Origin: Glycocaulis albus
Lineage (GTDB): Bacteria > Pseudomonadota > Alphaproteobacteria > Caulobacterales > Maricaulaceae
Direction of reading: 5' to 3'
NCBI RefSeq assembly: GCF_014639075.1
Contig: NZ_BMFS01000004.1
Location: forward strand, 62,001-126,000
DNA: 64,000 nucleotides
Made by a program: the position numbers and the translations under genes. The notes below the pieces were generated by a model. That model searched no databases and was not told the DNA's origin. It worked only from the letters and a program-made list of their open reading frames with translations. How positions within the stretch are numbered: the stretch's first letter is position 1; every line of letters begins with the position of its first letter. This document shows positions 49,230 to 51,713 of this stretch, in pieces.

Positions 49230-49269
49230 TGAGCGGAGTTTGAACGCGCCGCTCGGACGGCGTTCAGCC
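49230..49269 (+). promoter_or_regulatory. 40-base leader element, copy 1, upstream of the first curlin gene
   Basis: Matches 50551-50590 at 38 of 40 bases. It contains the inverted repeat TGAACGC-N12-GCGTTCA and ends 69 bases before the curlin ATG. A four-codon mini frame (ATG AGC GGA GTT TGA) begins at 49229 in both copies. Conservation between the two otherwise different spacers points to a shared regulatory site or mRNA structure. Confidence 0.6.
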
Positions 49270-49338
49270 TGGCTTCTCTAAACCTCTCATCACTGACGGC
49301 GCACTGAAGCGCCCAGCGACGAGATTTGGAGAAAGCAG

Positions 49339-49851
49339 ATGAAACTTCGCAACGCACTCGCCCTCGGCCTCAGCATCGTTGTCCTGGCCGGCACGGCCAG
49401 CGCCGCAGAGGCCCAGCAGCGTAACCGGGTCAATGTCAGCCAGAGCGGCTACGGTAACGAGCTGGCCGCGCGCCAGAACGGTCATCGCAACGCCCTCGCC
49501 ATCCAGCAGCGCGGTGGCTACCACTATGTCCAGACCATTCAGGCCGGTTCGCGCAATGGCGTGACCGTGGGTCAGGGCGGGTATGCCAATGGCGCGCTGG
49601 TTGACCAGCTTGGCCGCAACAACACCGCCGTTGTCGGCCAGGAAGGTTCCTATAATGGTGCCACGGCCATCCAGACGGGACGCAACAACACGGTTGGCGT
49701 CGCCCAGATCGGTTCGGGCCATAGTGCGCGGACCAACCAATCCGGCTCGAATAACGCGCTTGGCGTGATCCAGGTCGGCAGTGGCCAGAGCGCCAATGTG
49801 CGCCAGTCAGGCAGCGGTAATGTCTCGCTGGTGATCCAGGGCAGCCATTAA
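49339..49851 (+). CDS. Curlin-repeat amyloid subunit (CsgA/CsgB-like), copy 1
   Basis: 170-aa predicted secreted amyloid fibre subunit. A signal peptide (to about ASAAEA, residue 25) is followed by about a dozen 11-residue half-repeats of the curlin form x5-Q-x-G-x-x-N, such as RVNVSQSGYGN, ELAARQNGHRN, TAVVGQEGSYN, GATAIQTGRNN and ANVRQSGSGN. Gln, Gly and Asn spacing is that of CsgA. Curlins nucleate and polymerise outside the cell after export by CsgG; no csgG, csgE or csgF is in this window. GGAGA precedes the ATG. Paired with a CsgH-like gene 77 bases downstream. Confidence 0.88.
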   Translation: MKLRNALALGLSIVVLAGTASAAEAQQRNRVNVSQSGYGNELAARQNGHRNALAIQQRGGYHYVQTIQAGSRNGVTVGQGGYANGALVDQLGRNNTAVVGQEGSYNGATAIQTGRNNTVGVAQIGSGHSARTNQSGSNNALGVIQVGSGQSANVRQSGSGNVSLVIQGSH

Positions 49852-49928
49852 TTGCCAGCAGGCCGGCGGCGCGCCCTGTCCGGTGCGCCGCCGCCAGTGC
49901 CTCAGATCCAGAGGTTCAGGAGGATATC

Positions 49929-50423
49929 ATGCCCTATTTAAACACCATGATTGCTGTCCCGGCGATAGCCGCGGCCGTCTGCTTTGCCGGCCTTCCGTCA
50001 GCCAGCGCGCAGCTGTCCAGCACGCGCTCCGCAGGCGATCTGTGCTGGATTGATCTGGCCCGTGGCCGGGGTCACAGCCTGCTTAATGTCTATACGGCGC
50101 CTGGTCTTTCAGGCAGTTACGAGATGACAGTGCGCCAGGCCGGTGCTGGCAATGATGCCATCATCGACCAGTCAGGCACGTTCCAGCCTGCCCGGGGTAC
50201 ACCTGCCAATATCAGCCGGGTGGTGCTGGCCAATCCCACGCGGGGACGAAGCGCGCCCGGTATCGTGGCCGTCGCCGGTGGATTTCAGCAGGGCACCACC
50301 TCACGCCAGTCCAGCTACGGGCCCGTATCGCTGCCTGCTACTGCCTACAGCTATAACGCCTATTTGCGGGTGTTCGACCAACGCGGGCGGCTCGTCTGCC
50401 AGGCCAGCAGCTCGTGGCTGTAA
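49929..50423 (+). CDS. CsgH-like curli chaperone, copy 1
   Basis: 164-aa exported protein; signal peptide to about ASAQ (residue 28). The body matches the CsgH type, a small periplasmic beta-sandwich that blocks premature curlin polymerisation: LCWIDLARG, then APGLSGSYEMTVRQ and DQSGTFQP, ending with LRVFDQRGRLVCQ. The Cys near each end (LCW and LVC) may form a disulfide. The stretch VRQAGAGNDAIIDQSG itself has curlin-like Q-x-G-x-x-N spacing. AGGAGG precedes the ATG. Confidence 0.78.
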   Translation: MPYLNTMIAVPAIAAAVCFAGLPSASAQLSSTRSAGDLCWIDLARGRGHSLLNVYTAPGLSGSYEMTVRQAGAGNDAIIDQSGTFQPARGTPANISRVVLANPTRGRSAPGIVAVAGGFQQGTTSRQSSYGPVSLPATAYSYNAYLRVFDQRGRLVCQASSSWL

Positions 50424-50550
50424 GGCCGCGTACCGGCGGGCCAGTTTGCTGAATGTCTTTCCCACGCGACAGCGCGCTGCTCTTGGCAGTGCGCTGTTTC
50501 TGCGTTTGCAGAACCAGCCCCGGCAGCTGTTCACCTTCAGTTTTGGCACA

Positions 50551-50590
50551 TGAGCGGAGTTTGAACGCGCCGCTCGGGGGGCGTTCAGCC
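50551..50590 (+). promoter_or_regulatory. 40-base leader element, copy 2, upstream of the second curlin gene
   Basis: 38/40 identical to 49230-49269, including TGAACGC-N12-GCGTTCA, and placed 78 bases before the second curlin ATG. The rest of this 245-base spacer (50424-50668) shows no gene. Confidence 0.6.
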
Positions 50591-50668
50591 AGCCCCCGCT
50601 AGAACAGATGCAATGGCTAGCGCCTTCGGGAGCTTCGCCAGCACCTGAAGATGTAAACGGAGACCGCC

Positions 50669-51190
50669 ATGACCCTTCGCAGCACACTAGCCACCGGCCT
50701 TGCAGCCGCCGTGCTTGCAGGAACCGCTGGTGCCGCAGAGGCCCAGCAGCGCAACCGGGTAGATATCCGTCAGGCCGGGCAGTCCCACGAGCTGTCTGCC
50801 CGCCAGCAGGGCTACCAGAACCGGCTGTCGATCAGCCAGCGGGGGCGTCACCAGTTCGTCCAGACCATCCAGGACGGGCTGCGCAACGGTGCCGAGGTGC
50901 GCCAGTCAGGCAGCGCCAACGGTGCTTTCGTGGACCAGCTCGGGCGCTTCAGCGAGGTGCTGATCCGCCAGCAGGGTTACAATAATTCCGCCAGCGCGGT
51001 GCAGACAGGAACCGGCAACACGGTTGGCGTCTACCAGTTCGGCAACAACCATTCGGCCGTCACTACCCAGACTGGCAACCACAACACGCTGGGCGTCATC
51101 CAGTTTGGCAATGGCGCCCACACGGCCGTTCAGCAGACGGGCGATAATCGCAACACGCTCGTTATCCAGGGAAGCTGGGTCATCAAGTGA
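50669..51190 (+). CDS. Curlin-repeat amyloid subunit, copy 2
   Basis: 173-aa paralogue of the first curlin: same signal peptide design and the same mature start QQRNRV, but clearly diverged. Repeats include ELSARQQGYQN, RLSISQRGRHQ, GAEVRQSGSAN, SASAVQTGTGN, TVGVYQFGNNH and TLGVIQFGNG. More aromatic residues follow the Gln (YQFG, IQFG) than in copy 1, so the two may have nucleator and major-subunit roles like CsgB and CsgA (inference). Followed 31 bases later by a CsgH-like gene. Confidence 0.88.
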   Translation: MTLRSTLATGLAAAVLAGTAGAAEAQQRNRVDIRQAGQSHELSARQQGYQNRLSISQRGRHQFVQTIQDGLRNGAEVRQSGSANGAFVDQLGRFSEVLIRQQGYNNSASAVQTGTGNTVGVYQFGNNHSAVTTQTGNHNTLGVIQFGNGAHTAVQQTGDNRNTLVIQGSWVIK

Positions 51191-51221
51191 ACTGGTGGCC
51201 CCAATTGAAAGGAGCAGGCAA

Positions 51222-51713
51222 ATGAAACGTTTGACCGGATTGATCGGCCTTCAGGCCGTACTGGCTGCCAGCGCGTGCGCGCAGCCGCCAGATGCCACGG
51301 GCGGGTATGACTACAATGGAGCCGGCGCAACGCTCGCCACATGCTGGGTCGAGTTCAGCGACGGTCCGGCGGGGCAGGTTCTGCTTGAGGCCTACGCCGC
51401 GCCCGGCCTTGCCGGCAGCTATGAGCTGGATATCCGCCAGGTGTCAGCGAGCGGCGATGCCAGCATCAGCCAGTCCGGCCCGTTCAGCGTCGGCGGAGAC
51501 ATGCCCGAGCGGATCCACCAGATCACGCTCGGCGGCAATGCGCCTCGCCGCGGCGCCTCGCTCGGCGAGATGATGGCCTCCATGCGCAGCGCAGAGCCGG
51601 GCACAACGGTGATCTCGTCCGGTGATGGCGGTGCCGGCGCATACGAGGTACGCCTGCGGCTCATGGACAGCACTGGCCGCCAGATATGCGCCATTGACCG
51701 CACCGGTCCGTGA
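51222..51713 (+). CDS. CsgH-like curli chaperone, copy 2
   Basis: 163-aa exported protein (MKRLTGLIGLQAVLAASACA, a signal peptide that might be lipidated at Cys19). It shares with copy 1 the order ATCWVEF, APGLAGSYELDIRQ, SQSGPF, a Gly-rich middle and a C-terminal RLMDSTGRQICAID, giving the same Cys pair. A second hypothesis is a generic periplasmic protein, but the pairing with curlin genes twice in a row favours a chaperone role. AAAGGAG lies about 8 bases before the ATG at 51222. Confidence 0.75.
   Translation: MKRLTGLIGLQAVLAASACAQPPDATGGYDYNGAGATLATCWVEFSDGPAGQVLLEAYAAPGLAGSYELDIRQVSASGDASISQSGPFSVGGDMPERIHQITLGGNAPRRGASLGEMMASMRSAEPGTTVISSGDGGAGAYEVRLRLMDSTGRQICAIDRTGP

Follow-up and report, generated by a model that had tools for sequence, protein, structure and literature searches.

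A putative operator shared by tandem curlin-CsgH units and an unlinked third csgH in Glycocaulis albus, with HfaB as the sole CsgG-family candidate for curlin export

Alphaproteobacterial genomes encoding a curlin and CsgH without csgE, csgF or csgG have been known since 2012, when alternative proteins were inferred to take their place (PMC3521004), and how curlins are exported in these bacteria has been a standing question since then. A locus of Glycocaulis albus that narrows this question lies within a 64,000-nt stretch of NZ_BMFS01000004.1 (hereafter the window), part of a near-complete draft genome of 2.85 Mb in 27 contigs. The first-pass annotation of this locus had described two curlins, each followed by an exported CsgH-like protein, with no visible secretion genes, and had proposed a doubled set in which each subunit may have its own cognate chaperone and two fibre types are run from one locus. 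We analyzed the locus (Table 1) by comparison with a sample of 137 Maricaulaceae genomes (labelled G0xx below).

Table 1. Features of the curlin-CsgH locus, with positions given in the window.
Feature	Position	Strand	Description	Score
Box 1	49230..49269	+	37-bp dyad plus 3 bp, 109 bp upstream of the curlin 1 ATG	PSSM 40.4
Curlin 1	49339..49851	+	170 aa; signal peptide MKLRNALALGLSIVVLAGTASAAEA; mature part basic (~+7)	PF07012 71.5 bits
CsgH1	49929..50423	+	164 aa; exported; basic (~+5); Cys39...Cys157	NF041112 45.5 bits; PF21112 28.8 bits
Box 2	50551..50590	+	same putative operator, 118 bp upstream of the curlin 2 ATG	PSSM 39.5; pattern matches
Curlin 2	50669..51190	+	173 aa; basic (~+6)	PF07012 59.8 bits
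CsgH2	51222..51713	+	163 aa; exported; acidic (~-5 to -7); Cys41...Cys156	NF041112 47.8 bits

All four ORFs are intact and follow one another on the forward strand. As read from their sequences, both curlins are Sec-exported curlin-repeat subunits, each with a signal peptide and about 12 half-repeats, as first described, and each scoring well above the Pfam Curlin_rpt cut-off of 20.7 bits; they are 57% identical to one another. Pairwise comparisons with congeners yielded dN/dS values of 0.04 for curlin 1 (96% identical to its G009 orthologue), 0.09-0.17 for curlin 2 and 0.19-0.23 for CsgH2, which places all three under purifying selection; no orthologue of CsgH1 is close enough for such a comparison. 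Mature curlin length is near-constant across the family, with 143 residues in 38 of 43 curlins and 144-146 in the remainder. A literature search for curlin together with Maricaulis returned no match, and no experimental work on any of the proteins of this locus was found.

Profile and structural evidence places the two proteins encoded downstream of the curlins in the CsgH chaperone family, with a predicted anti-amyloid action. The products of the ORFs starting at 49929 and 51222 both exceed the cut-off of 35 bits for NCBIfam NF041112 (CsgH), and against the Pfam CsgH profile PF21112 (cut-off 27 bits) CsgH1 falls over the threshold and CsgH2 just under it (25.9 bits). The structural comparison with CsgH envisaged in the first-pass annotation, performed here on AlphaFold models, pointed the same way. 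Both models are beta-sandwiches with confident cores (mean pLDDT 76.1 for CsgH1 and 72.6 for CsgH2), and a Foldseek search against 350,542 PDB chains ranked R. palustris CsgH (2N59) first for each of them (E-values of 2.7e-3 and 1.1e-4, respectively), with E. coli CsgC (2XSK) at ranks 2 and 3 and TM-scores normalised by target of 0.65-0.66, as for a CsgC/CsgH-type beta-sandwich. They thus share the fold of R. palustris CsgH (Taylor et al. 2016, PMC4838910) and of CsgC, with the exception of an extra loop of ~35-40 residues preceding the last two strands. As with R. palustris CsgH, each is encoded beside a curlin gene, and each presents two cysteines that are near-invariant in our alignments (C39/C157 and C41/C156) and lie far apart, in agreement with the definition of CsgH by two cysteines distant in sequence instead of a CxC motif (PMC4838910). 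For CsgH2, the ATG at 51222 yields a 163-aa protein and a TTG further upstream would extend the ORF to 229 aa; its N-terminus can be read as a signal peptide or as a weak lipobox (AASAC).

The position at which the first-pass annotation begins, 49230, is also the first base of a 40-bp sequence common to both curlin units. In box 1, the elements TGA, TGAAC, CTC and GTTCA start at bases 1, 12, 23 and 33, defining half-sites at bases 1 and 12 (TGA) and at 24 and 35 (TCA), and the box is followed by a -10-like CTCTAAAC. The family box, derived from 80 distinct boxes, presents TGA at base 1, TGAA(C/T) at 12, (C)TC(A)G at 23 and TCA at 35, and is symmetric about base 19. This box precedes nearly all the curlin genes, and the stand-alone or unit-leading csgH genes, that we examined in the Maricaulaceae. 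When 93 upstream regions were scored with a position-specific scoring matrix, the results were bimodal, with values of at least 20.7 before curlins and unit-leading csgH genes and of at most 2.1 before csgH genes that follow a curlin. The G080 curlin scored low in this analysis owing to a predicted start located too far upstream, and a scan of the full locus recovered its box with a score of 33.0.

Since the model had been trained on the same 93-region loci, we performed three further checks. A pattern search of the G. albus genome returned the two boxes of the window and a single further site, with two mismatches, directly before a third csgH gene (csgH3). Among 20 loci held out of the training, the box was in place in 19, including six unlinked csgH genes, and the one exception is a contig-terminal csgH whose counterpart in relatives follows a curlin. 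Lastly, 44 of the 51 box matches in 28 genomes lie before a curlin or csgH gene, compared to one match in all for a reversed control pattern, a result that speaks to specificity rather than sensitivity, many of these loci having served in training. Given its family-wide placement and the outcome of these checks, the box is very likely a regulator-binding site. Furthermore, because the same putative operator precedes both curlin units, their co-expression is expected, and two fibre types are not indicated.

Two other identities for the box were considered. Its identical 25-bp core occurs, at up to three mismatches, only at the two curlin units in the 2.85-Mb genome, ruling out a genome-wide REP element, and as an RNA element it found no Rfam family near the gathering score. 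Outside the family, tandem curlins of Henriciella (L225, L227, L229 and L242) are each preceded by a variant box and have no adjacent CsgH.

The csgH3 gene lies on contig C1 (region 91500-95500; box at C1:93002-93038), unlinked to any curlin, and was found because the box pattern pointed to it. NF041112 missed it at E<=1, and it scores 109 bits with a family profile that included csgH3 itself. Two weaker CsgH matches, on C7 (17.8 bits) and at the end of C1 (13.1 bits), were discarded as false, since the family profile recovers neither of them, and inspection of the C7 locus revealed no exported CsgH-like ORF. Orthologues of csgH3 in G009 and G011 are likewise located behind a box, and the unlinked third CsgH proteins of G000, G009 and G011 define a separate clade together with the second CsgH of G088. 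With the profile built here, CsgH is present in 49 of the 51 curlin genomes, the exceptions (G053 and G058) having very long curlins.

The number of CsgH genes per curlin varies across these genomes, and this variation bears directly on the proposal of private pairing, in which each CsgH serves only the curlin whose gene precedes it and two fibre types are made from one locus. The order curlin 1-csgH1-curlin 2-csgH2 conforms to that proposal, as do the separate box of each pair and the divergence of CsgH1 and CsgH2, which are only ~32% identical and of opposite charge. However, the three congeners G008, G009 and G011 harbor orthologues of both curlins in the order curlin 1-curlin 2-CsgH2, with CsgH2 as the single linked chaperone. 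A 676-bp stretch encompassing CsgH1 (49851-50526), of ordinary G+C content, has no counterpart in any of the three, and homology to G009 ends at the end of curlin 1 and restarts just before box 2. In Maricaulis, one curlin is typically flanked by two different CsgH (long CsgH, curlin, short CsgH), G088 and G010 have the order curlin-CsgH-CsgH and G012 has curlin-CsgH; moreover, a third, unlinked CsgH stands under the same box. The curlin 2 orthologues of the three congeners form one clade with support of 100/100, and the curlin 2 and CsgH2 clades comprise the same four genomes. Nonetheless, no duplication in parallel with the curlins is resolved among the CsgH proteins: the grouping of CsgH1 with CsgH2 has support of 75/34, none of the alternatives is rejected (p-AU 0.21 and 0.45), and module duplication, retention and gain are not separated as origins of CsgH1. 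This variation in gene content indicates that one chaperone per subunit is not the rule, and we consider private pairing improbable.

The distribution of charge argues in the same direction. CsgH1 and CsgH2 differ in the sign of their net charge, yet the two curlins are basic to the same degree, which gives no charge-based division into partner pairs. The computed pI values are ~11.1 for the curlins, 10.0 for CsgH1, 4.5 for CsgH2 and 11.3 for CsgH3. This polarity differs from that of CsgC and CsgA: the E. coli and R. palustris chaperones are more basic than their curlins, with CsgH pI lying ~2 units above that of the curlin as an average trend and not a strict criterion (PMC4838910), and none of the three Glycocaulis CsgH lies that far above the curlins. 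Basic curlins are the norm in the family (40 of 43 have a net charge above +1, with a median of +5, all charges here being net values from approximate mature cores), and an acidic and a basic CsgH occur together in 18 of the 20 genomes with several CsgH, a count that includes many members of one Maricaulis clade and amounts to about five independent cases, set against two exceptions. Together, the gene-content variation and these acid/base pairs favor a chaperone pool over cognate pairs. The coexistence of basic curlins with CsgH of either charge also offers a natural setting for testing the electrostatic model of amyloid inhibition.

The first-pass report of no visible secretion genes holds for the neighbors of the locus in the window and very nearly for the genome. 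Searches of the Glycocaulis genome for CsgE and CsgF returned no match, and no curli-type CsgG channel was found, but one CsgG-family protein is present: HfaB, the middle gene product of an hfaA-hfaB-hfaD cluster on contig C8. This protein matches PF03783 with 76-77 bits and scores 414 bits with the HfaB profile (NF037935), compared to 23.5 bits with the CsgG equivalog, and its neighbors also exceed their NCBIfam equivalog cut-offs (HfaA NF037934, 76.4 bits; HfaD NF037936, 139.5 bits). In Caulobacter, HfaA and HfaD depend on HfaB, a CsgG homologue, for surface targeting, and HfaA resembles CsgA (PMC6707917). HfaB is proposed as the curlin channel in Glycocaulis because its Caulobacter counterpart is needed for the surface display of this curlin-like protein. 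The Glycocaulis cluster differs in being unlinked to the curlin units, and no curlin box was found there.

Across the 137 genomes, 51 encode curlins, only four encode CsgF together with a curli-type CsgG, and none encodes CsgE. Of the 49 genomes that combine a short curlin with CsgH, 45 also encode a CsgG/HfaB-type protein, but many relatives have HfaB and no curlins, which makes this co-occurrence weak evidence. The four genomes without a match comprise two incomplete MAGs (G067 and G079) and two genomes of 99% estimated completeness, Marinicauda salina (G080, 7 contigs) and a Maricaulis sp. (G069). In the latter two, box, curlin and CsgH are present, and neither Pfam nor a family-specific HfaB profile detected a CsgG-family or HfaB protein, suggesting that the curlin system probably does not strictly depend on HfaB for export.

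These two genomes lend weight to the alternative that curlins leave by an outer-membrane route lacking any CsgG-family channel, with HfaB serving the holdfast only. The alternative proteins inferred for Alphaproteobacteria by Dueholm et al. 2012 (PMC3521004) and the ~2% of CsgA-bearing genomes that lack CsgG (PMC10192328) are in line with such a route. Against it, 99% completeness is not 100%, secondary loss leaving a non-functional curlin remnant could account for both genomes, and no candidate channel was found, none of the examined box matches leading to one; we regard it as a sizeable minority possibility. A missing N22-like leader was discarded as a mark of CsgG-independent curlins, as it is equally missing from the canonical curlins of G010 and G049, and N22 has been called an outlier (PMC10192328); no export signal therefore singles out one channel.

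Alternatively, the curlins might stay in the periplasm or envelope, for instance as a solenoid scaffold, with CsgH limiting their polymerisation. The almost fixed mature length reported above would suit this arrangement, given that exported curlins vary in length (PMC10192328), as would the lack of a dedicated exporter in most genomes. However, HfaB is available in most of them. To our knowledge, moreover, all other curlin repeats described belong to fibres that are exported, and we deem retention highly improbable.

Taken together, these data suggest, with a probability that we put at roughly 0.6, that the Maricaulaceae harbor an 'orphan' curli locus, here composed of co-regulated box-curlin 1-csgH1 and box-curlin 2-csgH2 units and an unlinked box-csgH3, with a shared CsgH pool and export through HfaB. 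This reading draws, at the level of sequence, on export signals, family membership, the shared operator, gene-content variation and the absence of csgE, csgF and a curli-type csgG. Curlins and CsgH proteins, carrying Sec signal peptides, would be switched on together by one regulator acting on the box. In the periplasm, a CsgH set typically made up of one acidic and one basic paralogue may stop the basic curlins from nucleating amyloid, acting as a shared pool and not as private partners of single curlins. The curlins would most likely exit via HfaB, the sole CsgG-family channel here and the least certain step, in doubt because of the two HfaB-free genomes; given such export, curlin 1 and curlin 2 could assemble together into a single mixed fibre on the surface close to the holdfast pole. 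The Marinicauda salina and Maricaulis HXMU1422-2 genomes also suggest a CsgG-independent form of curli, in which a box-run curlin/CsgH regulon would reach the surface without a CsgG-family channel and an opposite-charge chaperone pool would replace CsgC and CsgE; we hold this only tentatively and consider it rather doubtful.

The Glycocaulis locus resembles the alphaproteobacterial loci of Dueholm et al. 2012 (PMC3521004) in having a curlin followed by csgH, with no csgC, csgE or csgF nearby and no apparent csgD, a regulator for which LuxR-type profiles are unspecific. It differs in that its operator recurs across the family, csgH paralogues occur unlinked, the units stand in tandem and the genomes concerned are HfaB-only or CsgG-free. 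No description of the operator, the tandem units, the third csgH, the CsgG-free genomes or the pairing of acidic with basic CsgH was found in the open-licence PMC papers searched, and they appear to be new here. The Glycocaulis locus also shares its curlin repeats, and in G049 a CsgH, with the canonical csgF-csgG-curlin(-csgH) operons of G010 (contig 345) and G049, which are distinguished by a CsgG of ~205-213 bits, the presence of CsgF, long curlins and the lack of a box. Both systems coexist in G010, with the boxless operon on contig 345 (L070) and a box-type curlin-csgH-csgH unit on contig 2 (L053).

The common operator offers a handle on the regulator and on the full regulon. A curlin-type box is located ~50-100 bp before genes encoding secreted beta/gamma-crystallins (PF00030) in G069 (L201 2445-2481), G076 (L202 2147-2183) and G. 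albus itself (C14:18185-18221), with four half-sites in the first two genomes and three in the last. Judging from these upstream sequences, the beta/gamma-crystallin genes are a possible further member of the regulon.
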